Source: Nitrospira sp. (GTDB taxonomy: Bacteria > Nitrospirota > Nitrospiria > Nitrospirales > Nitrospiraceae). Taken from it: a stretch of DNA of 64,000 nucleotides. Made by a program: the position numbers and the translations under genes. Below are positions 38,319-51,379 of the stretch, piece after piece (positions within the stretch are counted from its first letter, which is position 1; each line of letters starts with the position of its first letter). The DNA is taken from positions 1,101,001 to 1,165,000 of the forward strand of contig CP054184.1 of the NCBI GenBank assembly GCA_015709715.1, given 5' to 3'. The notes beneath the pieces are model-generated. The model searched no databases. It was not told the origin of the DNA and worked only from the letters and a program-made list of their open reading frames with translations.

Positions 38319-38640
38319 CGGAATCGCTGGCTGCGAGACGACGAGGAACGATGGCTGCTGGCGACCTGTCCGACTTGGCTCCGCGACTTCGTTGGGTGAA
38401 ACCCTGCCCCCCAGTGGCCGCACGTCGATCTGAATCAGGCATGATCTGCGGCACACGTTCGCAACGCGGCCGTGCCAGGAGGGCGTTGCTCCCTACACGG
38501 TCCAACGCTGCATGCACCATTGCACGGAGTCGCTGCGGTGGGGCATCGCGGCGCTCAATCGGCACGGGACCTGGCGGCTGTCACGGTTTTGTCACGGTGA
38601 GCCACATTCGGCGCTTGAGAGATCTGAAGCTGTCGTGTAA
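38319..38640 (+). pseudogene. Decayed tyrosine integrase
   Basis: Frame 1 reads NRWLRDDEERWLLATCPTWL, then RDFV and a stop. This parallels DRWLTCEEERRLLAASAPWL in the intact integrase of element 2. After a gap that loses the catalytic core, another frame reads HDLRHTFATRPCQEGVAPY, TVQR, then HHCTESLRWGIAALN to a TAA at 38638, matching the HxxR and Y-box-to-tail region (YAHHYPESLRDGVAIFD). It ends 22 bp before the left half-tRNA, exactly where an integrase of an earlier insertion would lie. Confidence 0.7.
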
Positions 38641-38661
38641 GGTACCGAAAAACCTTTCAAT

Positions 38662-38703
38662 GCCCCCGTAGCTCAGTTGGATAGAGCAGCGGTTTCCTAA
38701 ACC
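38662..38703 (+). repeat. Left attachment site: 5' half of tRNA-Arg(CCT)
   Basis: Forty-two bases identical to the first 42 bases of the complete tRNA at 45773, ending in the core gtttcctaaacc and then diverging. This is the chromosomal 5' half left by integration of element 1; it can no longer form a tRNA. Confidence 0.9.
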
Positions 38704-38832
38704 TTCCTACTTATTCTTACAACTTCTTGTCAAATCAACAGAACCCCGCTTCAGTAGCGGAGTTGCGTCGCTTTGACGAGCTAGTGGAGCTTGGGCCTAT
38801 TAGGGGCTAATTAGACTGTTTTTGTCGTAGAA

Positions 38833-38851
38833 CTAACACGCCCCTAACATT
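38833..38851. repeat. Putative integrase arm sites, left end of element 1
   Basis: Direct repeat CTAACAC/CTAACAT spaced 11 bp, about 130 bp inside the left end. It resembles the TTAACACC pair at the right end (45702-45720), with the same period. Confidence 0.4.
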
Positions 38852-38987
38852 TAGGCTATTTCTCTGGCAGGGCTTGATGAGGAACTCTCAGAAGTCGTGC
38901 GAGAGGTATCGAAAAAAGGGCGGCGCTTATAGCTGAGGCGCACCCAACAGTCAACAAAATGTGTTGACAAGAAAAGCGCACTCCCAT

Positions 38988-39030
38988 AAAAAGAGGAGAC
39001 CCCCTGAAGCTGTAACTTCAGAGGGCCTCC
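38988..39030 (-). terminator. Intrinsic terminator for the 45-aa gene
   Basis: On the minus strand a long stem (pairing GAGGCCCTCTGAAG with CTTCAGGGGGTCTC) is followed by CTCTTTTT. It lies 14 bp after the stop of the small gene. A separate perfect 7-bp hairpin (GTCAACA/TGTTGAC, 38950-38968) lies beyond it. Confidence 0.75.
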
Positions 39031-39043
39031 CGGTCCTAGGCTC

Positions 39044-39181
39044 TACTTTCTCTTGCGTCGGTTCTTCAGGCGAAATGCCTTCAGACCGTAATGAGAAGCG
39101 TAGATCCGCCTACCGTTCCTGGTTGTGATATACGCGACGTACACGTATTCACCAGGCTCCTCAGGCTTCTGCTTTTCCATA
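39044..39181 (-). CDS. Small basic protein of element 1 (45 aa)
   Basis: MEKQKPEEPGEYVYVAYITT, then RNGRRIYASHYGLKAFRLKNRRKRK. The ribosome-binding site GGAAAGGAGG and the good terminator downstream support a real transcript. The beta-like middle and very basic C-terminus suggest nucleic-acid binding; no family is recognised. Confidence 0.65.
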
Positions 39182-39342
39182 GGCCAGTCCTCCTTTCCGG
39201 GGAGCAATCAAACACCCCCCTCGCATGGGGTGAATTGATTCTCTGGTGGAGGCTTGCCTACCGGAAACGCCGCCTAGGACATTATTCCACTAATGTTTTC
39301 GCCTCATAAAGTCAACTGGAAAACAGTGAGGTCTACATGATC

Positions 39343-39540
39343 CTAGTGCAGACCCTTAAGGAGTTGACTGAGCCCTATCAAGATATGAACCACCTTCTTG
39401 AGAGCAGAAAGGATGGCATTAGTAGTACTTAACGCCTTCTCAGTTCTGCTGATTGGGACTGACTTCCTTCCCGCTCCGGCTTCCTTGTTTAGAATACATT
39501 GTGCTCCCCCTCTTATGGCCTGGGTAATCTTGATGAACAT
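39343..39540 (-). CDS. Possible small protein of element 1 (65 aa)
   Basis: Starts MFIKITQAIRGGAQCILNKE with AAAGGGGTGCTCCC upstream, and ends in a mildly hydrophobic helix (ALKKVVHILIGLSQLLKGLH). No family. A similar leader (ctaaaggggg) precedes the gene at 40531, which slightly supports both. Confidence 0.45.
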   Translation of the reverse strand: MFIKITQAIRGGAQCILNKEAGAGRKSVPISRTEKALSTTNAILSALKKVVHILIGLSQLLKGLH

Positions 39541-40309
39541 GGGAGCACCCCTTTAGTTAGTGTGAGCGTTCGCTCTTCTCAGAGCAGTGAATCATCTCCA
39601 CCAGGCCGACGAGGTATAAGTAGCACAACGCGGCTATATGTGTACCAACTTGGGGCGAAGCGGTCAAGGTAAGTGGTCGGGGCCTGAGAATGGGGTAGCT
39701 GCTCTAGGTGAGAATGTGCAGTCAGCGCATGAGGATCAAAGCACAAGCATACTTACTAACGAACAGGTTGAGACCCTTGAACAGATCTCCAGTGGGAACG
39801 CCTTACGGTCTTTGATGATCTCACACGTTCCGCCAGTTACCAACCAGCGCTCGTCTTGGATATCCTTCCATGACTTGTCCATCTCGCTCTGCGTAGGGGT
39901 AAGGACAAAGGGGGTGCTTGCTAGGCGGCTTTGGGATTGAGGGGCGGCCTCTCTGAACAACTTGTGATCGATCATGCACAGGAGAAGCACCGTAGGTTTC
40001 ATAGTTTTGAGGGAATACCACAGCCCAGAAATGCTAGTAACGTAGGGCGCAATAAAAAGCGGGAATAATCAGAAGAAAAAATATCTGAGGGTATTGCTAT
40101 GGGAGCATCTCACCGTTTCCCCCCATGGCCTCCCCTGCTGGGAAACTTAAGAAGGTAGGGGGTAGGGCGAGCGCAACAGAAACCTCCTAACATTCTCTCT
40201 CCCTCCTAGCGTGCTCTACCTCCTCCTCTGATTGAAACACCAAGGCCCCCACCACGCACAGAAAGGCGGTTGGTAAGGGCCTTGTGCCTCTGTCGATTTC
40301 CTAGGGGCC
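39541..40309. other. Part of element 1 without a confident gene
   Basis: Short overlapping frames exist on both strands (for example 39638-39940 plus and 39736-40002 minus), but none has a convincing ribosome-binding site or recognisable motif. The region may hold decayed or non-coding sequence. Confidence 0.4.
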
Positions 40310-40531
40310 TTAGGCAGGCCAGTACGACCCCACACTTCCCAGCTGGAACCGCAAGAAAGAAGTCTCAAGAAGAAGGAAACGCCCTTCTGACGCTCCCCAT
40401 TGAAAGAGCCGACCGCCTACGTAGAGCGCCCCACGCTCTTGCTGATACCACACAAACGGCTTCCCCTTCAGCTTCCCTTCCTGCCATGTTTGAAAGTGGA
40501 AGAGGAACGGGACATTGAGGCGAATTGACAT
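40310..40531 (-). CDS. Small Trp/Phe-rich protein of element 1 (73 aa)
   Basis: MSIRLNVPFLFHFQTWQEGK, then a beta-like segment (KPFVWYQQERGALYVGGRLFQWG) and a Leu/Phe-rich end. The ATG at 40531 has AAAGGGGGTCTGT upstream; an earlier in-frame ATG (40582) lacks this. Function unknown. Confidence 0.5.
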   Translation of the reverse strand: MSIRLNVPFLFHFQTWQEGKLKGKPFVWYQQERGALYVGGRLFQWGASEGRFLLLETSFLRFQLGSVGSYWPA

Positions 40532-40788
40532 ACAGACCCCCTTTAGTTGATTGGTGAATTCCCAATGAACGTGCCACATCAATCATACAGTACCAACAAC
40601 TCTATGTCTACGTGTTATCAACTAGTGCATGTGATCCACTCTTAGCGCTTTCGTTGACTCTTGGCTGTATCCGTCCTCTCTGCCAAAACCGCCTAGGCTA
40701 TCCGAGTAAGCCTCATTCTCCCTCTTGTTCTGTTCATCAAACGGTGATATGATGTATGTACACCGACTGAACAACAGGAGGATTGAAC

Positions 40789-41496
40789 ATGCACACCGAT
40801 CACCCCACCACTTCACCAGCTAGGAAACCGGCCTTGGCCTATCTGCGAGTCTCGACAGCAGACCAGGGCAGAAGCGGGAACGGCCTGGAGGCTCAGGAAG
40901 AAGCCATTCGGCGCTTTGTTGAACTGGAAGGTTTTGAGATTGTGCGATGGGTGCGGGAGGTCGAAACGGGGAAGGGTGCCGATGCCCTCAGCCGTCGCCC
41001 ACAATTGGCTGGTGCGCTGAAGGAGGCCAAGAAGCGCAAGGCCCCTGTCCTGGTGTCAAAGCTGGATAGGCTTTCAAGGGATGTGGCCTTTATTTCCGGC
41101 CTAATGTCTGAAGGCGTTCCATTCATTGTTACTGAACTAGGCGCGGATGTTGACCCGTTTGTACTGCATCTCTTTGCAGCGTTGAGCGAGAAGGAAAGGA
41201 AACTCATTTCCAGCAGGACCAGGGAAGCTCTTCAGGCACTCAAGCGGAGGGGCGTGAAACTTGGAAACCCTAGCCACAAAGGGCTTGTTGCAGCCTCACG
41301 AAAGGCCGCTGAAACACGGCAGGCTATGTCAGACCACTTTGCCGCTTCAGTCATTCCCATCATTCGCGGGTATCAACAAGCAGGGCTGACACTTCGCAAG
41401 ATTGCTGAGGAACTCAACAAGAGGAACGAACGGACCATGAGGGATGGTGAATGGCATGCTTCGACAGTGGCGAATGCCCTTAAGAGGGCCTCTTAA
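40789..41496 (+). CDS. Serine recombinase (resolvase/invertase family)
   Basis: 235 residues. The N-terminal catalytic domain has the Ser nucleophile S22 in ALAYLRVSTADQ, then VLVSKLDRLSRDVAFISGLM and ALSEKERKLISSRTREALQ. The C-terminal part is an HTH region (AGLTLRKIAEELNKRNE...WHASTVANALKR). It has no long zinc-ribbon/Recombinase domain, so it is a small resolvase-like enzyme. The ATG at 40789 has CAGGAGG upstream. It could resolve dimers or invert DNA within the element; a second recombinase, the tyrosine integrase, serves integration. Confidence 0.9.
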   Translation: MHTDHPTTSPARKPALAYLRVSTADQGRSGNGLEAQEEAIRRFVELEGFEIVRWVREVETGKGADALSRRPQLAGALKEAKKRKAPVLVSKLDRLSRDVAFISGLMSEGVPFIVTELGADVDPFVLHLFAALSEKERKLISSRTREALQALKRRGVKLGNPSHKGLVAASRKAAETRQAMSDHFAASVIPIIRGYQQAGLTLRKIAEELNKRNERTMRDGEWHASTVANALKRAS

Positions 41497-41526
41497 GTTC
41501 GCGTTAAGGGCTGCTTCTAACAGGAA

Positions 41527-41709
41527 CCATCTATTGATATGGTCCACCTTAGTACAAATGGGTCTGACCTAAGCTGACCCCGAATGATTTCAAGCGCTTA
41601 GTAATACCAGTGACCTCAGTACCGCTGCCGTCAGCCACGATTCCCCACCAACAGCGACTTGATACCATGCATCTATTGAAGGAATTGATATCCCCCACCT
41701 ATTGATAGA
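41527..41709. repeat. CTATTGAT repeats upstream of the RHH-like gene
   Basis: CTATTGAT or CTATTGAA occurs at 41531, 41673 and 41699, with AATTGATATC and GATAGATCAATTC around them. One copy lies in CCAT-CTATTGAT-ATGG. They could be operators for the downstream DNA-binding protein or recombination sites for the upstream serine recombinase. Confidence 0.3.
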
Positions 41710-41769
41710 TCAATTCTTTGCAATCGCGTTCACGCCCTCTGTTGACCACAAAAACCAGGAGACCCGCCT

Positions 41770-42066
41770 ATGAATACCGCTGATATGTGCCCGCTTGCGC
41801 GGCGACTTCCTCGCCAAACCGCCTTGAAGTCTCATAACATCCGCTTAGACCGCACAGCTGAATGTCTTCTTACGGAGATCAAAGACCGCCTGAGGGGAAA
41901 AAAGGAGCACGATATTCCGTCTTCCTCAGTAATCTTTCGACATGCGTTGACTCGGTACGGGCGGTATTGCCTCAACCTCACCGAATCGGCACTAACCCAG
42001 GAGCGAAAGGAGGTAACCAGAGGAACCTACTTACCCCACAAAAGACAGCATCATGAAACGGCCTAG
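41770..42066 (+). CDS. Putative ribbon-helix-helix DNA-binding protein
   Basis: 98 residues. Positions 24-70 (IRLDRTAECLLTEIKDRLRG, IPSSSVIFRHALTRYGRYC) show the pattern of a ribbon-helix-helix domain: a short strand, two helices and an S-x-x-x-R-x-A-L helix-2 start. The ATG at 41770 has CCAGGAGACCCGCC upstream. Repeats at 41527-41709 just before it may be its own operators. Autoregulator or accessory factor of element 1, by inference. Confidence 0.55.
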   Translation: MNTADMCPLARRLPRQTALKSHNIRLDRTAECLLTEIKDRLRGKKEHDIPSSSVIFRHALTRYGRYCLNLTESALTQERKEVTRGTYLPHKRQHHETA

Positions 42067-42203
42067 GAAGCCCTAGGAGCGACGATCTCCCGTAGCCTTA
42101 CCCGTTTCACCCCCCTCAATTTTCACAAAATCACACCCCAGCAAAATCAATGCGTTAGCGTTTGAGAACATCGAATGCGACGCAAAGTCAGGAGCATCTC
42201 ACC

Positions 42204-42422
42204 ATGTCGGTGATCCGTATTTCCACAAGATGGGCGCAATGCCCTATGCAGACTCCTATCAAAGCAACGCCGAGAATGAATTGGAATGACAACATCGCCG
42301 AGTTTATCTCTACTACTCGCCTCGCAACCACACGACCAAAAGAGCCTAAGGTTTCAGATGTCGTAGTAGCTGGGCCATGTACGGAAGTCCCCTGGTGGTG
42401 GGGACATGGAAGGGGTGAATGA
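42204..42422 (+). CDS. Small unknown protein of element 1 (72 aa)
   Basis: MSVIRISTRWAQCPMQTPIK and onward, ending VPWWWGHGRGE. Support is limited to CAGGAGCATCTCACC before the ATG and an overlap of three bases with the next gene start. No family. Confidence 0.4.
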   Translation: MSVIRISTRWAQCPMQTPIKATPRMNWNDNIAEFISTTRLATTRPKEPKVSDVVVAGPCTEVPWWWGHGRGE

Positions 42423-42721
42423 TGAAGGGCCACATCTTGTTAAAAGACATTGCACACGCGATCAAAGCGCGACGATTCAAGACGCCAAAAGCAGTGGCCC
42501 AAAGACTAGGGACTACGGAGAGATTCGTACGCTGCAAGCTCAGGATGGTACTTGCCTACTTGCAGCTGATTGAGTGGAATCTGTGGTCTCAGTGCTTCCC
42601 TGGCCCCCCTTCTAGAAAGAGCGCTGCACAGTCAACGAAGCGTCAGGCAAACGGTGAACAGCATATTCAACACCTCAAGGAGACACATGACAAAGGTTAC
42701 AACCCCATTCAATCCCAATGA
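42419..42721 (+). CDS. Putative HTH protein of element 1
   Basis: 100 residues. The N-terminal part (GHILLKDIAHAIKARRFKTPKAVAQRLGTTERFVRCKLRMVLAYLQL) has the helix-turn-helix look of KorB/ParB-like or sigma-type HTH proteins. The C-terminal 40 residues are polar and probably disordered. AAGGGGTGA precedes the start, which overlaps the stop of the upstream gene. The 3' end overlaps the next gene. Confidence 0.5.
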   Translation: MMKGHILLKDIAHAIKARRFKTPKAVAQRLGTTERFVRCKLRMVLAYLQLIEWNLWSQCFPGPPSRKSAAQSTKRQANGEQHIQHLKETHDKGYNPIQSQ

Positions 42722-43139
42722 CGACAATAAGTACATAAGCGATAAGGACAGCTTTGATTCCCAAGAAGATATGCTTTTACATATGAGCGATCCGCGCTAC
42801 CAACACGAACAAGGGTATCGGGATGCAGTGGCGAAAATGATAGCGAATAGCGATGCAGGCCTTCTGGGTCTTACTCCACCACGCATCGGAGACGAAGGCT
42901 CAGATGATGTGGAGATAGTAAATGACTGGGTCAAGCAGACCTTTGGAAACCCTCTCTATAAAACCTCAGCAATCTATCGCCGTCAGGTCGCTGAAGCTGT
43001 CGCAAGTCAGGACTACGACCATTTGATAGAGGGCCGGATTAACCATAGAGGTGGCTGTACGCGTGTGAGTATTCCGTCTACGGACGAAACGGGACCAAAC
43101 GCACCTCAACGAACACCCCAAAGCAATCCCCAAGAGTAA
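42687..43139 (+). CDS. Unknown acidic protein of element 1 (150 aa)
   Basis: MTKVTTPFNPNDDNKYISDK, then a mostly helical, acidic region (DPRYQHEQGYRDAVAKMIANSD, VEIVNDWVKQTFGNPLYKTSAIYRRQVAEAVASQDY). The ATG at 42687 has AAGGAGACAC immediately upstream. It overlaps the preceding gene by 35 bp and is followed by a strong terminator, so it closes the unit that begins at 42204. No known family. Confidence 0.6.
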   Translation: MTKVTTPFNPNDDNKYISDKDSFDSQEDMLLHMSDPRYQHEQGYRDAVAKMIANSDAGLLGLTPPRIGDEGSDDVEIVNDWVKQTFGNPLYKTSAIYRRQVAEAVASQDYDHLIEGRINHRGGCTRVSIPSTDETGPNAPQRTPQSNPQE

Positions 43140-43255
43140 ACAACGCATCCGGCCAGGCCCCCTCTCCCGCCTCTTTCTCTAGCCCAATCAATCAGTAGCT
43201 GCGGCGAACATTGCGCGGATAACTATGCGGCAGAGGTGGGGGGTGTGACTTGGAG

Positions 43256-43331
43256 GGCTCTTGTCTCGGGGTTCTGTGGTGGTGGGATGATCCCCATTAC
43301 TTAAGGAACCCCAGACAAGGGCCTTTTTATT
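43256..43331 (+). terminator. Long-stem intrinsic terminator
   Basis: The arm 43256-43274 (GGCTCTTGTCTCGGGGTTC) pairs with 43306-43323 with a single bulge around a 31-base loop, and TTTTTATTTAT follows. It ends the 42204-43139 gene group and insulates the ParB-like gene. Confidence 0.75.
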
Positions 43332-43412
43332 TATAGAGATGAAACAACTTCAGCAGGGTCTCTCTATACCGCCTACAGCCGTCATGAGCTACGAGCAAGG
43401 ACGAAATTAAGA

Positions 43413-44234
43413 ATGAACACTACTCGGTGGTACGCAGCTTTCCAAGAGTTTCAGGGTAAGAAGATTGCTCCCCTATCCCCTGAAGAAGCAGCCTTACGAA
43501 GGTTGCCCATACACGATGTGCGCACAGTGGAAGCCCTCTTTCAACCTCGACAGCTAGAGGAGGGAACAGCGCAAAGCGGGCAGCATCTAGAAGAGCTGAA
43601 ACGGGCCTTACAGGCCAGAAGCCGCCTTGACCCCATCACGGTGTTTAAGATCGGTGGGGAGTGGGTGTGCATTGATGGGCACCATAGGCTAGAGGCCTAT
43701 AGACAAGCTGGCCGAAAGCGACTCACGCACATACCTGTCAAAATCTTCATTGGGTCTCTAGAGGAGGCCCTGTGCTTTTCCATTGCGGCCAATGCCCCCG
43801 ACAAGCTCAACCTCTCACGTGCCGACAAGTACGAAGCCGCTTGGCGTTTGGTACTGCTAGGTCGTTTTTCTGCATCACAAATCAGCCGGACTTCTACAGT
43901 CTCAGAGCGCACAGTACACAACATGCGGAACAATCTACAGCGGTTGAGACATGAATACCCAGCCCTGAAGGGGGAAGAATGGACGTGGCAGAACGTGAAA
44001 GAGGTGTTCAGAGGTGTGGGTAGTGAGTATGGCGAACATTGGGAGGAAACGAAGGCTAAAGAAATCGCCAATGAATTAGCAAGGCGTTTCCATGGGGTGC
44101 CAGCAAAGAGGCCCAGAGTATTTGCAAAGGCTCTGTATCAGTATGACCCTCTGACCGCTCAGGCAATCTGCCAAGAGTTAACGGTTTTGTGCCGCAACCA
44201 CCAAAATACTGCAGAGGAGAACCCTGATTTCTAA
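43413..44234 (+). CDS. ParB/Srx-like nuclease-domain protein
   Basis: 273 residues. The N-terminal domain (about 25-120) is ParB/sulfiredoxin-like: LPIHDVRTVEALFQPRQ, RSRLDPITVFKIGGEWVCIDGHHRLEAYRQAG (the G-x-H-R nucleotide-binding motif) and IPVKIFIGSLEEALCFSIAANA. A KorB-like HTH follows (LSRADKYEAAWRLVLLGRFSASQISRTSTVSERTVHNMR). Such proteins in mobile elements serve partition, regulation or DNA nicking. No ParA gene is nearby, so partition is doubtful. No adequate ribosome-binding site decides the start. Confidence 0.82.
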   Translation: MNTTRWYAAFQEFQGKKIAPLSPEEAALRRLPIHDVRTVEALFQPRQLEEGTAQSGQHLEELKRALQARSRLDPITVFKIGGEWVCIDGHHRLEAYRQAGRKRLTHIPVKIFIGSLEEALCFSIAANAPDKLNLSRADKYEAAWRLVLLGRFSASQISRTSTVSERTVHNMRNNLQRLRHEYPALKGEEWTWQNVKEVFRGVGSEYGEHWEETKAKEIANELARRFHGVPAKRPRVFAKALYQYDPLTAQAICQELTVLCRNHQNTAEENPDF

Positions 44235-44399
44235 GTACTGCAACCCATAGGGGGGTGCATTTGCACCTCCCGCCTCACCCCTGCCAAATCATTTAAAGCG
44301 TTGTTTTACCAACATTCTTGCATCATTTTTCGGCCCAATCGAGCGTAACAATTTTCACGCTGATTTCAGGCCCCTTTCGTCTCTCAAGGAGCATAGCTT

Positions 44400-44615
44400 A
44401 TGGTTCATGCACAAACACACGGAGAACGCCTCTTGACCGTTGCCGAAGCAGCGGCCTATCTTGGCCTCGCTAAACTCACCATCTACGATTGGGTTAGCCA
44501 GAGAAAGATTCGACACGTAAAAGTCGGCAGATTGACACGATTCAAACAACAAGACCTAGATAGCTGGGTAGCCGCCCACACCATCATGCCTATACCGCAC
44601 GCCTCAAACTCTTGA
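44400..44615 (+). CDS. Excisionase/AlpA-like HTH protein
   Basis: 71 residues of the HTH_17 type: LLTVAEAAAYLGLAKLTIYDWVSQRKIRHVKVGRLTRFKQQDLDSWV. This MerR-like winged helix is the usual recombination-directionality factor beside tyrosine integrases; it starts 233 bp before the integrase and ends 17 bp before it. CAAGGAGCATAGCTT precedes the ATG. Confidence 0.85.
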   Translation: MVHAQTHGERLLTVAEAAAYLGLAKLTIYDWVSQRKIRHVKVGRLTRFKQQDLDSWVAAHTIMPIPHASNS

Positions 44616-44632
44616 GTGGGGTACTTTGATCC

Positions 44633-45745
44633 ATGGGACTTACCAAACGCAAAGACAGCTACTATGTGGAGTTTCCCGTTTTGGATGATGGAAAGGTATT
44701 GAAATTGGCGCGCGGCATCAAAGGCGCAAAGCTGAAGCGATGGAAGGTTGGCTGTCTCAACAAGGGCGTTGCCCGCAACATGGAAGCAAAAATCAGAACC
44801 GATCTTCTGTTAGGAAAGATGGAAAGCCAGGAAGCTAAGCCCATTCTCTTCGGCGAGTGGGCCAAGACCTATCTAGCATTGGAAGAGGTTTCACGCTTAA
44901 GAAGTTACCAGGATCGAGTCGAAATTATGGAGCGACAACTTGTACCGTTCTTTGGGAAGCGGCTATTGACCCAGATCAAGCCAGAAGACGTGCGGGCATT
45001 CCGCGCCCAGCGTAAGCGCAGGGACGGAAAACCGGCTAGCCTTCAGACTGTGAACAATGACCATATTGTGTTGAAACACTGCCTCAATGTGGCAGCAAAA
45101 CGCGGCCTCTTGGTCAGTAATCCCGCCGCTCTCGTGCCTCTACCCAATCCGCACAATGAGCGAGATCGCGTACTGAACGATGAAGAGTGGCAAAACCTTT
45201 TTCAAGCTGCTAAGCCCCATCTTCGGCCCATCCTCCTCGTTGCCTATCACCTAGGACAACGGCTGGGGGAAATCGTTCAGCTGACGTGGGATCGTGTGGA
45301 TTTGAAAAGAGGGTTCATTACCTTGCGGGGAATGGACACGAAGACCAAGAAGCCGCGCCAGGTGCCGATGACTCCCGATGTGCGGACTACCCTACAGCAG
45401 CTAGCGCGGTTGAGAAGCCTTGCAACAAAGCATGTGTTCTTGTACAAGGGAAAGCCGATCAAGCGTATCAGTCGGGCTTTTAGAACTGCGATGGAAGGCG
45501 CAAAGGTGGAAAACTTCCGCTTCCATGATCTCCGACACTGCGCGGCAACCAATCTCAGACGCGCTGGGATAGACACAGCAACGGCTATGAATATCGTGGG
45601 GCACCAATCAGAGAAGATGTGGAAGCGGTATAATGCCATTCAAGAAGCCGACCTGGTGAAAGCTGCGCAAACCCTTCACAGTTACTTGCAGACTGCGGAG
45701 CTTAACACCTCTTTAACACCACGGACTGAAACGAAAACGGGTTAA
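44633..45745 (+). CDS. Tyrosine integrase of element 1
   Basis: 370 residues. An N-terminal arm-binding region and a core-binding SAM-like domain (about 70-165) precede the catalytic domain. Catalytic residues visible: R210 (HLGQRLGE), H298 and R301 (FHDLRHCAATNL), H324 (IVGHQS) and Y333 (WKRYNAI); all are intact. Its 3' end contains TTAACACC repeated with an 11-bp period, probable arm sites, and it stops 27 bp before the tRNA used as attachment site. Confidence 0.95.
   Translation: MGLTKRKDSYYVEFPVLDDGKVLKLARGIKGAKLKRWKVGCLNKGVARNMEAKIRTDLLLGKMESQEAKPILFGEWAKTYLALEEVSRLRSYQDRVEIMERQLVPFFGKRLLTQIKPEDVRAFRAQRKRRDGKPASLQTVNNDHIVLKHCLNVAAKRGLLVSNPAALVPLPNPHNERDRVLNDEEWQNLFQAAKPHLRPILLVAYHLGQRLGEIVQLTWDRVDLKRGFITLRGMDTKTKKPRQVPMTPDVRTTLQQLARLRSLATKHVFLYKGKPIKRISRAFRTAMEGAKVENFRFHDLRHCAATNLRRAGIDTATAMNIVGHQSEKMWKRYNAIQEADLVKAAQTLHSYLQTAELNTSLTPRTETKTG
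45702..45720. repeat. Putative integrase arm sites, right end of element 1
   Basis: TTAACACC at 45702-45709 and again at 45713-45720 (11-bp period), inside the integrase 3' end and about 85 bp from the core. Confidence 0.45.
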
Positions 45746-45772
45746 CCAACTAACCCATTGAAAAATAGGATC

Positions 45773-45849
45773 GCCCCCGTAGCTCAGTTGGATAGAGCAG
45801 CGGTTTCCTAAACCGCGGGTCGCACGTTCAATTCGTGTCGGGGGCACCA
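45773..45849 (+). tRNA. tRNA-Arg (anticodon CCT)
   Basis: A 77-base cloverleaf. Acceptor GCCCCCG pairs with CGGGGGC; the D arm is GCTC...GAGC; the anticodon arm GCGGT-TTCCTAA-ACCGC gives anticodon CCT at positions 34-36; the T arm has TTCAATT. CCA is encoded. It is the only complete copy in the window; its 5' half comes with element 1 and its 3' half with element 2, and it lies between their two integrase genes. Confidence 0.95.
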
Positions 45850-45854
45850 ATTTT

Positions 45855-46925
45855 TCAACAGGTTAGCGAAACCTGCTCTGGTCGAATCCCCGCTTGTGCT
45901 AAATTTGTGCTAAACGGCCTTCCCGCATCGAAAATCGCCACCCCATCCCGCAAACTTTCCGGATAATGGTGCGCATACCGCTGCGTCATCATCGGCGACT
46001 TATGCCCCAGAATCCGTTGGACCTTGTACAAGTCCACACCCGCCTGCACCATGCGAGTCGCACAGGTATGGCGCAGATCATGGAACCGGAAATCCGACAC
46101 CTGGCCATGCTTCAGCGCCAATCGGAAACTTCGGCGTAGGTTGGGAGCATCCAACGGTGTGTGAGCTGCGCTCGTAAACACTAAATCCGAATCCATACGC
46201 CGACCACGGGCTTTGTTCTGAAGCGCCTGCACGAGCGTGTGACTGAGTGGAATCGTCCTCCGCTCCCCGTTCTTCGATTTAAACACCGTAGCGGTTCGTC
46301 GATTAAGGTCCACACCGGCCCATGTGAGATTCAGAATTTCCCCACATCGCATACCAGTATGGAGCGCGAACACAATCACTTCCTGTAGCCACGGCGCTGA
46401 AGCCGCAAGGAGACGTCGTTCCTCCTCACACGTCAGCCATCGATCCCTCGTATTGTTCTCCCGTTCCATGGACACCCGGCACACCGGATTGTCCTTGGTC
46501 CATTCCCATTCGCGACACGCCAAATTGAAGGCCTTCTTCAGGAGCGCCAATTCGCGATTGATCGTGGCCGGTGTAACCCCATCCGCATACCGTTTGTTCT
46601 TAAAGGCTACGATCGTTTTGGGTGTCACTTGTTCCAACTTGGGATTGCCAAAATGCGCGGTCAGATTCGTGACCATGTTCACATAGCGCCGGTAGCCCGA
46701 CCGTCGGCTGGCATGCTCGCGCAAATACCGATCCATCAACTCTCGAAATGTCCTGGCTTCCTCTTTGGGCTTGTCAAAGTACTTTCCTTCCACAATCTGC
46801 ACCCTGACTTTACTGAGGATAGCTTCGGCCAACTTTTTGTCCGAGGTTTCGGTCGATCGGCGCACTTGCTGCCCTTGAAACGTAAATGACATCCACCAGA
46901 TATTGTTCCGTTTAACGAGCCCCAT
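45855..46925 (-). CDS. Tyrosine integrase of element 2
   Basis: 356 residues, all catalytic residues present: R193 (HTGMRCGE), H282 and R285 (FHDLRHTCAT), H308 (ILGHKS) and Y317 (TQRYAHH). Core-binding domain at about 58-150. The C-terminal tail FSTNLAQAG is encoded by the tandem arm-type repeat at 45895-45914. The ATG at 46925 has GAAGGAGGAGCAGC upstream and is the family start (MGLVKR...); the frame to 47072 is not needed. It overlaps the excisionase gene by 14 bases and ends 5 bp from the tRNA. Confidence 0.95.
   Translation of the reverse strand: MGLVKRNNIWWMSFTFQGQQVRRSTETSDKKLAEAILSKVRVQIVEGKYFDKPKEEARTFRELMDRYLREHASRRSGYRRYVNMVTNLTAHFGNPKLEQVTPKTIVAFKNKRYADGVTPATINRELALLKKAFNLACREWEWTKDNPVCRVSMERENNTRDRWLTCEEERRLLAASAPWLQEVIVFALHTGMRCGEILNLTWAGVDLNRRTATVFKSKNGERRTIPLSHTLVQALQNKARGRRMDSDLVFTSAAHTPLDAPNLRRSFRLALKHGQVSDFRFHDLRHTCATRMVQAGVDLYKVQRILGHKSPMMTQRYAHHYPESLRDGVAIFDAGRPFSTNLAQAGIRPEQVSLTC
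45895..45914. repeat. Arm-type repeat of element 2, copy 1
   Basis: tgtgctaaatttgtgctaaa: two tgtgctaaa units with an 11-bp period, inside the integrase 3' end, 80 bp from the core. Identical 20-bp copies lie at 49620 and 50505. Confidence 0.65.
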
Positions 46926-47220
46926 GCTGCTCCTCCTTCGTGCGTGGGCTCGGTGTGATGGTTTCCCCGCCGCGAGTATAGACCTCGGATTTGGCCGCTT
47001 CAATGAGCTGGTCCACGTCGCGGGTGTCGTCATGAGTCGGCCCTGGGAAGGGCTTTCCAGGACTGGCCTCAAAACTGTTTAGCCAGGCCTCAATCGCCTC
47101 AGGTTCAAACCTGACGAGGCCATGAATGCGACGGCACGGAATCTTATTTTTGGAAACCCAGAGATAGAGTGTGGATTCTTTGATGTTGAGCCAAGCCGAA
47201 AGTTCTTTGACGGTAAGCAT
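46912..47220 (-). CDS. Excisionase-like HTH protein of element 2
   Basis: 102 residues. The N-terminal HTH_17 domain (MLTVKELSAWLNIKESTLYLWVSKNKIPCRRIHGLVRFEPEAIEAWL) is typical of recombination-directionality factors. A polar tail of about 45 residues follows. Its 3' end overlaps the integrase start, so the two are co-expressed. An in-frame GTG at 47232 is an alternative start; neither has a good ribosome-binding site. Confidence 0.83.
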   Translation of the reverse strand: MLTVKELSAWLNIKESTLYLWVSKNKIPCRRIHGLVRFEPEAIEAWLNSFEASPGKPFPGPTHDDTRDVDQLIEAAKSEVYTRGGETITPSPRTKEEQHGAR

Positions 47221-47262
47221 GTGCAGATACACCGGGGGAGTCTGCCGACACCCCCAGTCCCC

Positions 47263-48267
47263 CTAACATGGGCTGCCCGCGTGACCGCCGGCAGACCGGT
47301 GAAACCGAGTGGGTTGCTTGAGCAAATTGCGGTGTCGGTCTTTCCACCGAGCAATGCCCCTGACAATTTCGTTCAGTAGCCATTCTTCCCCTCCAGGGGT
47401 GGCACAAATGACCGCCAACATCGGCGTCAGGGTGTCACTCACCCATCGTTTCACGTTCTGCAGGGTCTGCACCTGCTGCTCCTGGGCTAATCGCCCCTTC
47501 TGAAATCCCTCCGTCAAGAGGGCGTACCACTCCAAGACTGGAGCCCGGTACCGTTCTTCATCCTCGGCATCCTTCGGGATCTGCCGGAAATCCACATACG
47601 ATCTCAGTAAGCCGACCACCAACTCCTTCCAGTCGGCTTCGTCTAACGTGGCCAATGCTCGGGCACACTGTTCCGCCCGATCCTTCTTGAGCTCTAATTC
47701 CCACCGTGTCCCGTAGTCCTGCCAGTTCTCCTGGCCTTTGCTCTGGAGTTCCAATCGTTTGTCATAAATCCGCAACAGGGTCTGACTCTGTGGACTCCCG
47801 AAGTACATCGTCTCGCCAGTCGTGGCCCCTGTCCCGTGCGTCAGGTTCGAGACGATATGCCGGACCTGAGCCGCACGTGTGACACATTGGCCTATCGATA
47901 CTGCTTCACGAATTGTCGCTACCGGCACCGTACCTGCTCGGTCATCCAAAGCACAGTCAATGCGTGTGACATGCCCCTGTTGGTCATGCACCCACTGCAG
48001 GAGCCCTCGGATTTGATCCAGTGTCAGGGCGGACGCCAGGCCGCCCGACAGATCCACATGGATTTCATTCGGACGCCGAGGGGCATTGGTGCCCAGTTTG
48101 CCGACCCCGCGCAGACCGTCCACCCTCATCCACGACAAGGGATAGCCTCGGAAGCCGCCTTTGGCTTTACCCCAATCACCACCGAGGACCTTCATGGTCT
48201 CTTGCGGATTGCTGGCCAGGACCGTAAACGCCAGCCAATCAATCGTCAGGGTGAAGCCAGAATCCAT
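47263..48267 (-). CDS. Replication initiation factor (Rep_trans-like)
   Basis: 334 residues. It starts with a beta-rich segment (FTLTIDWLAFTVLASNP), then HVTRIDCALDDRAG (an RxDxxxD-type motif) and the diagnostic MYFGSPQSQTLLRIYDKRLE. This combination is typical of the Rep_trans/NicK-type initiators of small plasmids, filamentous phages and some ICEs, which nick an origin and start rolling-circle replication. The catalytic Tyr is not assigned. It suggests element 2 can replicate when excised. The origin is probably within or near this gene. Confidence 0.75.
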   Translation of the reverse strand: MDSGFTLTIDWLAFTVLASNPQETMKVLGGDWGKAKGGFRGYPLSWMRVDGLRGVGKLGTNAPRRPNEIHVDLSGGLASALTLDQIRGLLQWVHDQQGHVTRIDCALDDRAGTVPVATIREAVSIGQCVTRAAQVRHIVSNLTHGTGATTGETMYFGSPQSQTLLRIYDKRLELQSKGQENWQDYGTRWELELKKDRAEQCARALATLDEADWKELVVGLLRSYVDFRQIPKDAEDEERYRAPVLEWYALLTEGFQKGRLAQEQQVQTLQNVKRWVSDTLTPMLAVICATPGGEEWLLNEIVRGIARWKDRHRNLLKQPTRFHRSAGGHAGSPC

Positions 48268-48594
48268 GGAACCTATCGAACTCCTGTACGGAGCGCTGTA
48301 GGTAGCGCCCCCGTGTTACCAAGACGGGGGCCATTCCGCTCCGCCCCGCAGCCTGTCGGCATGCGGCGCGGACCGGCTTTGCCTCCCACAGACGGACGAC
48401 AGTGTTGCTGTGTGACGCGCTCCAACTCGGACATCGTTTCCTCTGTTTGGCCCTGTTTCCGTTCGTCTCACCCTATGCCAATCACCAGACCGAAGCAAAG
48501 GCCCCGGAAGGGGTCAGTAAGGGTCACGAGGGGACAGGAGAGGACAGATTTTCGAACAGATGAGACACGAAAGGAAGTAGGCATAAGGAGGCGT
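48268..48594. other. Non-coding region upstream of the replication gene
   Basis: No convincing protein gene. A 15-codon frame (48595-48642, MWALLRWWRQLCAWS) with AAGGAGGCGT before it follows on the plus strand and could be a leader peptide; this is weak. The region probably holds promoter and perhaps origin functions for element 2. Confidence 0.35.
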
Positions 48595-48650
48595 ATGTGG
48601 GCTTTACTGCGCTGGTGGCGGCAATTGTGTGCATGGTCCTGAGCCGGAAC

Positions 48651-48770
48651 ATGCAGCAATCAAAAATCGACTGGTTTTGGGGCCGTGCGCGAAAAAAATT
48701 TCGGAGGGCATTGCCGTCGTTCTGGGAAAGGATCAAAGGAGAGGGAAGCCGTGAATTCAGCTCATCGTAA
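48651..48770 (+). CDS. Possible small basic protein (39 aa)
   Basis: MQQSKIDWFWGRARKKFRRA, then LPSFWERIKGEGSREFSSS. Trp/Arg-rich and amphipathic. There is no good ribosome-binding site, but it may be coupled to the 15-codon frame that ends nine bases earlier. Low confidence. Confidence 0.3.
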   Translation: MQQSKIDWFWGRARKKFRRALPSFWERIKGEGSREFSSS

Positions 48771-48788
48771 GGAAGCAGGATCGCTTGG

Positions 48789-49205
48789 TTAGGCTGACCG
48801 TTTCCAGCTTTCGACGATGAGGCCAGGAATGCGCTGGAAGTGCGCGAGGTTGTTCGTAATCAAAGGACGCTGCGCGTCCAAGGCGGTAGCGGCAATGAGC
48901 AGGTCTGCATCGGGCAACAAGGCCCCCTGTCGATGGAGATCGCCGTATAACGTCGCCGCACGCTCGACGACTTGGTCAGTGATCGGGAGAATGAGACTGG
49001 CTTGGCAGAGCAACGTGAAAGCCGCCTCTTGAGTCCGTGCCTGTTTCGCCTTCAGTCCCCGCAGGAGTTCGTAGCGCGTGATGATCGAGAAGGCCAGCCG
49101 CTGGTGCTCCCCCAGATAGTTCCGTACCCGCTGCACGACGAGGGGATGTTGTTTGAGAAGTTCGGAGAGAATATCGGTATCAAGGAGGACAGCCGGTTGC
49201 GGCAT
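48789..49205 (-). CDS. vapC: PIN-domain toxin (VapC-like ribonuclease)
   Basis: 138 residues with the PIN acidic residues: Asp pair in AVLLDTDILSELL, Glu in IITRYELLRGL, Asp residues in LLPDADLLIAATAL, and the end PLITNNLAHFQRIPGL. VapC toxins are Mg-dependent RNases that cleave tRNA or rRNA. Its ATG overlaps the antitoxin stop (TGATG), the usual coupling. It is cargo of element 2 and may stabilise it. Confidence 0.92.
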   Translation of the reverse strand: MPQPAVLLDTDILSELLKQHPLVVQRVRNYLGEHQRLAFSIITRYELLRGLKAKQARTQEAAFTLLCQASLILPITDQVVERAATLYGDLHRQGALLPDADLLIAATALDAQRPLITNNLAHFQRIPGLIVESWKRSA

Positions 49206-49441
49206 CAGGCAGCCGGCTCACGGAAGAAGTGTTGCCGATCTAACGCGATGGACTCGACCTGCGTGATCTCGTCGGCGCTCAGCCCTTGATAGACCAGCGC
49301 CGCACGCCGCAGAATTTCGTCCGCACCGAGCGCAAGGTCGGTGTCGACGGTGACCTGCACTTCGGCGTCATCAGCCAACGCAAGAGGTTCCAACGGCTGT
49401 AACACTCCGTCATGATAGCGGGCCTTGATTGTTTGTCGCAT
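49205..49441 (-). CDS. DUF104 (AF2212-like) antitoxin
   Basis: 78 residues. It starts MRQTIKARYHDGVLQPLEPLAL, the AF2212/DUF104 signature, followed by EVQVTVDTD and a helical C-terminus that would wrap the toxin. GGGAGGGTTTTCCG precedes the ATG at 49441; the open frame to 49537 is not supported. DUF104 antitoxins typically pair with PIN toxins, as here. Confidence 0.85.
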   Translation of the reverse strand: MRQTIKARYHDGVLQPLEPLALADDAEVQVTVDTDLALGADEILRRAALVYQGLSADEITQVESIALDRQHFFREPAA

Positions 49442-49759
49442 CGGAAAACCCTCCCCCTGCATTCGCCCATTGGCGGCAGTGCATCGGTAGATGCCTATTC
49501 TACTCAAACGGCGTCCAAATCTCACCACTTGTCGCAAGAACGCCCATTAGCCTGCAAAATGAGTTGGGCCGTCGCTGGCCCTGACTGACGGTCTCAGGGA
49601 AGGGAGGCACTCCAAATCCTGTGCTAAATTTGTGCTAAATAGTTTCAAGAAAGGATTCAATTTCTTGCACCAACTGACGGGACAGAATCTCCTCGAAGCG
49701 TTAGAAGCACCAAGAGTCCCCCAAATGTTCTTTCTCGATTTCTAATTCCAGCAAGTCAA
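49442..49759. other. Intergenic region between antitoxin and lipoprotein genes
   Basis: No gene seen. Besides presumed promoters for the flanking divergent genes, it contains the 20-bp arm-type repeat at 49620-49639. Confidence 0.5.
49620..49639. repeat. Arm-type repeat of element 2, copy 2
   Basis: tgtgctaaatttgtgctaaa, identical to 45895-45914 and 50505-50524. It lies about 1 kb inside the right end, before the lipoprotein gene. Confidence 0.65.
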
Positions 49760-50461
49760 ATGAACGCCATGAATTACAAAGGTGCATCCCCGATTTATTG
49801 GAAGGCCTTTTTGATCCTTTTGACGATAGGCAGTCTTTTTAACATTGGAGGCTGTGTTGCGATTGGCCATGGCACATACAGCTGGCCAACTTTTGTTGGA
49901 GGTAGCGATGATGATGATGATGGGAAAAAGTATCCCATTCTCAATCTGCCAGGAATAGCGATTCAAGTAGTTGCTCACAATGGTGATTCATTCGGCTTGG
50001 TCGGACCTGTGGTCCCTTTCATTCCCATTTGGGAGCACACTGGTGGTTCTCCATTTTGGATAGGCGTCCATCTTAACCCGGAGGTTAAGGAATTCGTTTT
50101 CGATCCATTTCAGGTCGGTCTAGAGCTGGAGGGAGGGCAACTATTGCTTCCTGAAAGATTCACCGGACCATTCATGGCCACAGAAGACGATCCTACGATG
50201 TTTTGCTCCGGAATTTTTAATCCTGAATTTCACAAAAGCGAGCACGCCACTTTTTTCGTGATCGGCGAGATGTGCTTTGGGATTGCGTTCAACATCATCG
50301 CTCCAAAACCAGATGCCAAGTTTTCTGTGCTAATTGACGGTCTTGAGCAGAAAGAACGGTCTGTGAGTGTCCCGAAAATTACATTTGGCAAGAAGGAGCG
50401 AGGAGGCTGGTCCGTTTGCCTCAACGGCTCAATTTGCACAGAGCATTGGACAATGAGATGA
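49760..50461 (+). CDS. Lipoprotein cargo gene of element 2
   Basis: 233 residues with a lipoprotein signal (FLILLTIGSLFNIGGC). The mature part contains an acidic run (GGSDDDDDGKK) and a beta-rich region (FVFDPFQVGLELEGGQLLLPERF) with several Cys (CSG, MCFG, CLNGSIC). No family recognised. Base composition is clearly lower in G+C than the chromosome. The gene is bracketed by two identical 20-bp arm-type repeats. The start at 49760 lacks a good ribosome-binding site; ATG at 49769 is an alternative. Confidence 0.7.
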   Translation: MNAMNYKGASPIYWKAFLILLTIGSLFNIGGCVAIGHGTYSWPTFVGGSDDDDDGKKYPILNLPGIAIQVVAHNGDSFGLVGPVVPFIPIWEHTGGSPFWIGVHLNPEVKEFVFDPFQVGLELEGGQLLLPERFTGPFMATEDDPTMFCSGIFNPEFHKSEHATFFVIGEMCFGIAFNIIAPKPDAKFSVLIDGLEQKERSVSVPKITFGKKERGGWSVCLNGSICTEHWTMR

Positions 50462-50504
50462 AAGCCATTTGAGCAGTAGCAGCCTGAAAATTCGATTCGC
50501 ATGC

Positions 50505-50524
50505 TGTGCTAAATTTGTGCTAAA
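50505..50524. repeat. Arm-type repeat of element 2, copy 3
   Basis: tgtgctaaatttgtgctaaa, 128 bp from the right core. Together with copy 1 on the other side of the core in the circular form, it gives the arm-core-arm layout expected of attP. Confidence 0.65.
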
Positions 50525-50651
50525 AATTTTCAAAACCCACCTATACTCCTCGAATCCATCGAATCAATGGAAAGCGTCCAAGCACCTGTTTTCGCAGTTA
50601 AAATTGGGGAAACCATTGATACACCGAGCGTTTCAAAAACTGCCCAGGCCT

Positions 50652-50699
50652 GTTTCCTAAACCGCGGGTCGCACGTTCAATTCGTGTCGGGGGCACCAA
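50652..50699 (+). repeat. Right attachment site: 3' half of tRNA-Arg(CCT)
   Basis: Forty-eight bases identical to 45803-45850 (core, anticodon 3' arm, T arm, acceptor, CCA). This is the original chromosomal 3' half displaced by element 2. It cannot form a tRNA alone. Confidence 0.9.
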
Positions 50700-51093: not shown

Positions 51094-51379
51094 TTCGCCT
51101 CGACGGGTTTGGTGTTGATGAGCCGGATCATCGAGGAAGATGGCAAAGTCCTGCTCACCGACGCTCTCCTCTTCACCCTATAGCCCTTAGGCCTTCCGGC
51201 TCAGCGCAAATTGTTCAGGCTGCACAGTTCTTTCCCCGTCCTTTCACCGAAGCTAGGAGGGCCGACGAAGCCCTCACCGCTTCCAACTGGTGAATCAACA
51301 GGTTAGCGCCGCCGTTTCCATCGCCCCAGCAGGTACTGGGCTTGCACTACCTGCCGTCCATAACAAAGGAGTGGCTGCC

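Follow-up and report, generated by a model that had tools for sequence, protein, structure and literature searches.

A complete tRNA-Arg(CCT) gene in the genome of a Nitrospira sp. lies between two tyrosine integrase genes that converge on it, and this locus raises the question of where the parts of the gene came from, what transcribes it now, and whether the host depends on the mobile DNA on its two sides. The stretch of DNA analyzed here (hereafter the window; 64,000 nt of contig CP054184.1) is part of a one-contig genome of 4.16 Mb (G000). It was compared with relatives in the genus and the order, both groups being used as the genome search tool defines them.

The tRNA-Arg(CCT) gene and its displaced stubs

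ARAGORN detected one tRNA in the window, tRNA-Arg(cct) at 45773-45849 (+). Infernal located 44 tRNAs in the whole genome, one of them CCT, and the other arginine tRNAs are ACG, CCG, TCG, and TCT. The original prediction had called this gene the only complete tRNA-Arg(CCT), which agrees with the genome-wide count, where no second intact CCT gene was found. The strongest genome-wide matches to the gene are itself and two stubs (2.3e-34, 4.1e-18, and 2.1e-15), followed by a match of 86% identity (1.3e-11) inside a Thr(CGT) tRNA gene. The gene, the stubs, and the segment that they share are as follows.

45773..45849, + strand: complete tRNA-Arg(CCT) gene, a chimera (ARAGORN; sole CCT among the 44 tRNAs of the genome)
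38662..38703, + strand: displaced 5' stub, tRNA positions 1-42, left end of element 1 (42/42 identical)
50652..50699, + strand: displaced 3' stub, tRNA positions 31-77 followed by one A; marks the right end of element 2 (48/48 identical)
45803..45814, + strand: core common to the three att copies (GTTTCCTAAACC), tRNA positions 31-42 (overlap of the two stubs)
45805-45811, + strand: 7-nt anticodon loop, the likely strand-exchange segment (from the stub ends in relatives)

Chance or paralogous matches were ruled out as the source of the stubs, which are exact, whereas the next match reaches 86% and lies in another tRNA gene. Chance in particular is excluded because the perfect 42-nt and 48-nt matches are ordered, lie on the same strand, and each enclose an integrase gene pointing at the tRNA. 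Read from the sequence, the gene is a chimera of two mobile elements, as had been proposed, and the exact 5' and 3' stubs bound element 1 and element 2, respectively. The proposal that its first 42 bases came with element 1 stands for the 5' part, but the figure of 42 is slightly too high, since positions 31-42 are common to all three sites.

A 5' stub, a complete gene, and a 3' stub occur together in at least 5 of 61 genomes (G000, G010, G015, G024, and G057), although the arrangement is split across two contigs in both G010 and G015. Homology to the chromosomes of relatives restarts at approximately 51170, some 470 nt downstream of the 3' stub in the window. An exact 14-nt copy of the element 2 flank (TCAACAGGTTAGCG) was also observed at 51295-51308, approximately 600 nt past the 3' stub; it is possibly a chance match or an older att scar.

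Elements on the two sides of the gene

Element 1 lies on the 5' side of the complete gene and has the following features.

38704..45772, + strand: element 1 (5'-side, approximately 7.1 kb), bounded by the 5' stub and the complete tRNA
40783..41496, + strand: serine recombinase/resolvase gene (Pfam Resolvase, 4.3e-23)
43413..44234, + strand: ParB-like gene (PHROG 1033, 2e-13; no Pfam match)
44400..44615, + strand: HTH_17/excisionase-like gene (Pfam HTH_17, 2e-15; PHROG 66 excisionase, 1e-10)
44633..45745, + strand: tyrosine integrase Int1 (Pfam Phage_integrase, 8.6e-28)
45702..45720, + strand: arm-type direct repeat pair TTAACACC-TCT-TTAACACC at the 3' end of int1 (from sequence; a mirror-equivalent pair lies on the element 2 side)

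The GC content of element 1 is approximately 0.50-0.53, compared with 0.59 for the window. Its integrase gene is an intact ORF of 370 amino acids, and its stop codon precedes the tRNA, which has the same orientation, by 27 nt; the TTAACACC pair probably represents integrase arm sites. With a 5' stub upstream, a complete tRNA downstream, and an integrase inside, element 1 has the organization of a 5'-type tRNA element, and the DNA upstream of the tRNA indeed belongs to it, as originally predicted. Comparable layouts were found in G010 (with the stub on a separate contig), G015, G024 (with only a remnant of int1), and G057. The ORF at 42570-43139 has a weak match to a T7-type capsid assembly protein (Pfam, 6.7e-07; PHROG head assembly, 9.1e-09), and no other capsid gene was recognized among the ORFs of element 1 that were searched.

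Element 2 lies on the 3' side.

45850..50651, - strand: element 2 (3'-side, approximately 4.8 kb), bounded by the complete tRNA and the 3' stub
45855..47072, - strand: tyrosine integrase Int2, converging on the tRNA 3' end (Pfam Phage_integrase, 3.1e-39)
45895..45914, - strand: arm-type repeat pair TGTGCTAAATTTGTGCTAAA (from sequence; putative arm role)
46912..47232, - strand: HTH_17 (excisionase-like) gene (Pfam, 2.8e-11)
47263..48267, - strand: Rep_trans/MobT-like relaxase gene (Pfam Rep_trans, 2.6e-33; NCBIfam MobT, 1.4e-14, far below the model cut-off)

A complete tRNA at one end, a 3' stub at the other, and an integrase inside indicate that element 2 is an ordinary 3'-half tRNA integrative element. 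Full-length copies with 90% identity are present in G025 (L097) and G005 (L102), and Int2 copies with 91-97% identity occupy the same place in 11 relatives (partial in G021). Int1 and Int2 share 32% identity; both genes are open reading frames that converge on the tRNA and have an HTH_17 gene upstream, and both integrases are presumably active. With its own integrase and a relaxase-like gene, element 2 is a candidate integrative and mobilizable element; among its proteins searched, no conjugation genes were found. A PIN-domain protein with an overlapping AF2212-like partner is encoded at 48789-49537, likely a toxin-antitoxin pair. The TGTGCTAAATTTGTGCTAAA pair recurs near the far end of element 2, at 49620-49639 and 50505-50524, and these two distal pairs flank a stretch of 0.9 kb with one ORF (49760-50461; no PHROG match), possibly an accretion.

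Probable crossover sites, in silico resealing, and empty sites

In the relatives, the 5' stubs match the tRNA up to position 38, 39, 40, or 42, two of these stubs having a single mismatch close to the end; the 3' stubs start to match between positions 27 and 37. Within the anticodon region, these stub ends, as a sequence comparison, are compatible with exchange at positions 33-39, which would place both crossovers in or beside the 7-nt anticodon loop, the stem-flanked segment where anticodon-sublocation integrases exchange strands. Element 1 would then have given approximately the first 32-38 nt of the tRNA and element 2 the remainder, and the complete gene need contain no host base outside the anticodon loop, whichever element entered first. 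Gene conversion could have rewritten parts of the tract, because it is identical in all copies.

In silico deletion of element 1, element 2, or both regained the exact tRNA-Arg(CCT), and the loss of a single element gave the exact gene at every crossover point within the shared core. The prediction that the loss of either element would reseal the gene exactly is thus borne out in silico: because all three sites share the core, excision of one element, or of both as a block, would restore a perfect gene.

Empty sites were identified for both elements. For element 1, the complete tRNA in G001 and G006 follows DNA that is 84-86% identical to the DNA preceding the 5' stub in the window. For element 2, the DNA directly past the tRNA in G019, which does not have the element 2 flank, matches the DNA past the 3' stub in G018 (loci L070 and L091). 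This match bears on the alternative that the 3' half is host DNA, the flank of element 2 being native and 50652-50699 a stray copy. Of 23 genus genomes, 15 carry the ATTTTTCAACA flank, which a native flank could also do, but the other eight continue into other DNA, and Int2 ends 9 nt from the tRNA in all 12 wide-fetched regions with this flank (11 relatives and the window). Together with the G018-G019 match, these observations make a native 3' half highly improbable, and we retain the reading in which element 2 supplied it. At one locus (L060; G027, C12), the element 2 flank extends for approximately 40 nt past a complete tRNA before giving way to unrelated DNA, which is possibly a deleted element 2 or a native flank without Int2.

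Displacement of the native promoter

Of the 22 genus genomes in which DNA upstream of the tRNA was available, 16 have a genus-conserved promoter there, TAGACA-N17-TATCGT or near it (by a loose pattern); the other six, including our own, have other sequence. In G010, G015, and G024, the 5' stub retains this native promoter and the complete gene is preceded by element DNA, with the qualification that the G010 stub is on another contig and that the G024 tRNA is preceded by an integrase remnant only. The native promoter has therefore been parted from the complete gene in these three relatives, as far as their sequences can be read. A native-type promoter was not seen at the 5' stub of G057, which belongs to another family.

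The position of the native promoter in these relatives also bears on whether the locus is an ordinary tandem array, built by two entries from the 3' side, with the 5' stub left over or duplicated. Such arrays are frequent at single tRNAs (Islander counts 125 tandems of two or more and 3919 islands in all, in an excerpt of PMC4383910), and G024 carries two 3' stubs. However, a 3'-side element leaves a 3' stub and not a 5' stub, Int1 is encoded upstream of the tRNA in the same orientation, and the three 5' stubs hold the native promoter, so that we regard a tandem array as extremely improbable here. Entry of element 1 from the 5' side is the reading that we follow below.

In the window itself, the genus-conserved promoter was not found, nor was it found beside the native neighbor elsewhere in the genome; the suggested check for a retained original promoter thus came out in favor of its loss. 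Two features were found upstream of the 5' stub instead.

38615..38643, + strand: promoter-like TTGAGA-N17-TAAGGT, separated from the 5' stub by 18 nt and no longer joined to the complete tRNA (sigma-70 matrix score 9.12)
38440..38598, + strand: putative remnant of a decayed tyrosine integrase gene, the third at this locus (element 0), directed toward the 5' stub (reads HDLRHTFATR...; Pfam Phage_integrase, E=0.0013, which does not reach the gathering score)

The score of 9.12 was reached by 0.95% of 2000 random window positions, and the site was not among the matches of a stricter consensus scan. The same promoter type is common to G001, G006, and G011, where DNA 83-86% identical to the pre-stub region precedes the complete tRNA (G001 and G006) or the 5' stub (G011). 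The stub promoter of the window therefore appears to derive from an older, decayed 5'-side element.

The native upstream neighbor of the tRNA ends at C1:1059654, approximately 80 kb upstream of the 5' stub, and neither a promoter nor a stub was found beside it. In our genome, G001, G006, and G011, the match to the native upstream stretch starts only 105-112 bp from the tRNA; the sequence beside the native neighbor was read for our own genome among these four sites. We take this shared breakpoint to be one old event, with a rearrangement without element 0 as the alternative. The native promoter was probably lost earlier than the entry of element 1, most simply through the older 5'-side element 0. 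The assumption behind the original prediction, a one-step move of the gene from a chromosomal promoter to that of an element, was therefore revised: the stub carries another promoter, and the native one was not found. The tract of approximately 80 kb between the native neighbor and the 5' stub (C1:1059655-1139661 of G000), of which window positions 1-38661 form the right part, may represent a large island that has lost its left att site. In G006 the native neighbor is approximately 15 kb away from the tRNA, and in G001 approximately 99 kb.

Transcription of the complete gene

Upstream regions of 80 nt were scored with a sigma-70 matrix of assumed base frequencies. The median scores were 6.34 for the tRNAs of the genome itself (n=43), 6.9 for the int-to-tRNA stretches of 5'-type loci (n=55), and 4.88 for 3'-type loci (n=22); the controls gave 4.45 for shuffled 5'-type stretches (n=1100) and 1.83 for random window positions (n=2000). 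Here the 5'-type loci had been reduced from 65 to 55 and the 3'-type loci from 24 to 22 by the removal of identical 80-nt upstream sequences and loci that were too short. No recognizable sigma-70 promoter was found within 80 nt upstream of the complete tRNA in the window, where the score was 2.88, a value reached by 33% of random windows and below the median of shuffled 5'-type stretches. The matrix is imperfect, because some host tRNAs also score low.

Taken together, the 55 5'-type loci showed a weak promoter excess over the 3'-type loci (p=0.04), and composition by itself raises the 5'-type scores, as seen in the shuffled and random controls. The 5'-type loci at CCT and TGT tRNAs scored above the 3'-type loci (n=18 versus 22, p=6.9e-6, a value that overstates independence because the CCT/TGT rows are related). 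At 16 of these 18 unique loci, we found TTGAC[CG] or TTGCCG, a spacer of 17 nt, and TA[AG]Axx, a -10 element that contains the stop codon of int; the two loci without such an int-tail promoter are the window copy and L128. By contrast, the idea that every 5'-type element has an int-tail promoter was rejected, because the Arg(TCT) loci (n=25) score no higher than the 3'-type control (p=0.88).

No terminator-like site was found on the + strand from 43863 to the tRNA, so that read-through from int1 is feasible; our best guess is that the window tRNA is transcribed in this way. The original prediction that expression depends on an element-borne promoter holds in that the upstream DNA is element-borne, but no sigma-70-like promoter lies within 80 nt. 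Alternatively, the tRNA may have its own promoter within element 1 that the matrix missed near the gene, such as TAGACA-N16-TATCGT at 45570-45597 within int1. Its hexamers are the same as those of the native promoter, and the TATCGT half is present in the window alone among seven sequences compared (the window and six relatives; two more fell outside the search pattern). Against this candidate, it was picked post hoc, lies 175 nt upstream in coding sequence, and is one of two such sites on both strands of 43300-45780, where 1.5 are expected. We therefore consider a separate promoter in element 1 rather unlikely and continue with read-through from int1.

Polarity of the Int1 family

Of the 235 genomes of the order, 61, our own included, have a relative of Int1 at E<=1e-70. 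Each locus was typed by the relative order and orientation of its int and tRNA genes. The 99 loci, which include some between-collection duplicates (e.g., L115/L139) and leave out G057 and G024, examined separately, comprise 65 5'-type loci, 24 3'-type loci, and 10 without a tRNA nearby (some at contig ends). The 5'-type thus accounts for 65 of the 89 loci having a tRNA, and its targets are Arg TCT (26), Thr TGT (13), Arg CCT (12), Leu TAA (5), Gly CCC (4), Arg ACG (4), and Pro TGG (1). Both Thr(TGT) and Arg(CCT) are targeted from the two sides, and these classes are readable from gene order. 5' stubs were observed at CCT loci, and L113 (Thr TGT) has a 3' stub; ten long loci (two CCT, one 3'-type) were searched for stubs of their own tRNA, and no convincing far 5' stub was found within the available flanks.

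A tree was built from 76 of the 99 rows, after removal of integrases that were shorter than 250 aa, contained stops, or were identical. It shows three or four polarity changes, and the strongly supported branches alone force one or two. An AU test, which kept 69 labelled rows, rejected a single 3'-type clade (p=0.0025, with the caveat of long branches). These results indicate that polarity has switched more than once in the Int1 family.

At no fewer than 13 of the 55 unique 5'-type loci, another integrase on the 3' side is directed toward the tRNA; this search used two queries, the flank was shorter than 700 nt at three loci, and the integrase at L130 is 547 nt away. At L176 (G179, C128; tRNA at approximately 1286-1362), a broken Int1 relative with 72% identity over 248 aa lies on the 3' side of a tRNA-Arg(CCT) that retains a native-type promoter, with a near-identical TTGAAAAAT flank and a polarity opposite to that of Int1. 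This locus as a recent polarity flip was not supported, because it lies outside the 35-row 5' clade (support 80).

Five flanks were aligned outward from the tRNA: element 1, L176, two other 5'-type elements, and the reverse complement of element 2. They have in common A[AG]CAC-N6-A[AG]CAC, TAA, TTGA, and the end of the acceptor stem. The att layout thus looks like one design used mirror-image around a tRNA with a dyad anticodon arm, where the arm and core roles of the repeats are those that we assume on a lambda-type model. Because the TAA also occurs on the 3' side, its conservation alone is no evidence of a promoter.

AGG decoding and host dependence

The original prediction also held that the host relies on the elements if AGG is decoded only by this tRNA. 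The genome has an intact tRNA-Arg(TCT), which presumably reads AGG by wobble, as well as MnmG- and MnmE-family genes, and the claim was not upheld. As far as the genes tell, the host need not depend wholly on tRNA-Arg(CCT). AGG accounts for 33 of the 729 Arg codons (4.5%) in 17 chromosomal ORFs and is commoner in six element ORFs (40783-48267, 48789-49205), with 26 of 174; these counts cover large ORFs of the window chosen by size and presumed to be coding.

The presence of tRNA-Arg(TCT), MnmE, and MnmG and the rarity of AGG in the chromosomal ORFs both speak for a reading in which the replaced promoter is neutral, the tRNA being dispensable and its expression decayed. However, among the matches listed, 23 of the 29 genus genomes, our own included, carry an identical copy of the 77-nt gene (two of the rest have a full-length match of 91%, and four have none), although att function may add constraint. 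The higher AGG use of the elements also weighs against neutrality. We judge this reading unlikely and prefer that of a gene still supplied through element 1.

Discussion

We consider it highly likely that two opposite-polarity elements at one attB rebuilt tRNA-Arg(CCT). Under this proposal, two site-specific integrative elements would use the anticodon arm of the gene as a shared attB. Int1 would cross over in the anticodon loop, and element 1 would bring a new 5' half together with the tail of its integrase gene, pushing the old 5' half and its promoter 7.1 kb upstream. Int2 would cross over in the same loop, element 2 bringing a new 3' half and displacing the old one 4.8 kb downstream, which would leave the complete gene flanked by element DNA on both sides. 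Entry from both sides would be possible because the arm is a dyad and both elements carry the mirror-image att arm layout. Transcription of the tRNA would now be supplied by element 1; most sister elements at CCT and TGT tRNAs would do so through a sigma-70-like promoter in the last int codons, which is unrecognizable in the window copy.

A broader reading, which we offer as possible but doubtful, is that the tRNA promoter was permanently lost in this lineage to serial 5'-side elements, that the gene is now the last in an integrase operon in our genome, and that one integrase family uses the anticodon arm as a reversible two-way socket with repeated polarity switches. If so, the supply of tRNA-Arg(CCT), and hence AGG decoding, would track int1 transcription and integrase binding at the adjacent arm sites. 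Members of the Int1 family are more often on the promoter side (65/89 loci with a tRNA), at several tRNAs, and they offer natural pairs of native and replaced promoters on an identical tRNA, with the 3'-type relatives as controls. Both the tolerance of a host for element control over a translation gene and the switching of sides by an integrase at a symmetric target thereby become testable.

The following comparisons draw on excerpts of the cited sources. Element 2 and element 1 resemble the 3'-half tRNA elements (genomic islands, ICEs, and IMEs; Islander) in having a tyrosine integrase, a tRNA attB, and ends formed by a gene and a stub, but element 1 differs from them in restoring the 5' half. 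In Islander, a 5' fragment is recorded for 159 of the 3919 islands (PMC4383910). According to a review, rebuilt bacterial tRNA genes keep the original promoter with very few exceptions, and 5'-half cases transcribed from the element are known from pTN3-like archaeal elements and seldom from bacteria (PMC8371274). In pTN3, the regenerated tRNA gene is separated from its original promoter (PMC5495485). The pTN3-like integrases of Thermococcales are thus alike in using the tRNA 5' half as attB and in parting the gene from its promoter (PMC5495485, PMC8371274). Integration of pTN3 splits the integrase gene, whereas int1 shows no such split and lies whole, directly upstream of the tRNA; here, moreover, a second element lies on the other side of the tRNA. 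A bacterial precedent of reversed polarity, cited for 5'-distal recombination (PMC6563490), is likened here by its title and citation.

The mechanism is therefore known in its parts, and 5'-half entry is known and rare in bacteria. Among the best-ranked open-access literature matches, we found no study that describes the rebuilding of a tRNA from both sides or the Int1 integrase family, and we have not seen the two-sided rebuild, the serial promoter loss, or a polarity-switching integrase family described. In tRNA-dependent lysogeny (Guerrero-Bustamante and Hatfull 2024), a phage-borne tRNA takes the place of a host tRNA that is destroyed (PMC10865867, in excerpt). The likeness is that host tRNA function comes to rest on an integrated element; by contrast, tRNA-Arg(CCT) is regenerated in place. 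Promoter switching in ICEKp1 is similar in that integration rewires transcription between tRNA and int, but there, by the excerpted account, the host tRNA promoter drives int (PMC13023037), whereas here the int-side DNA precedes the tRNA.
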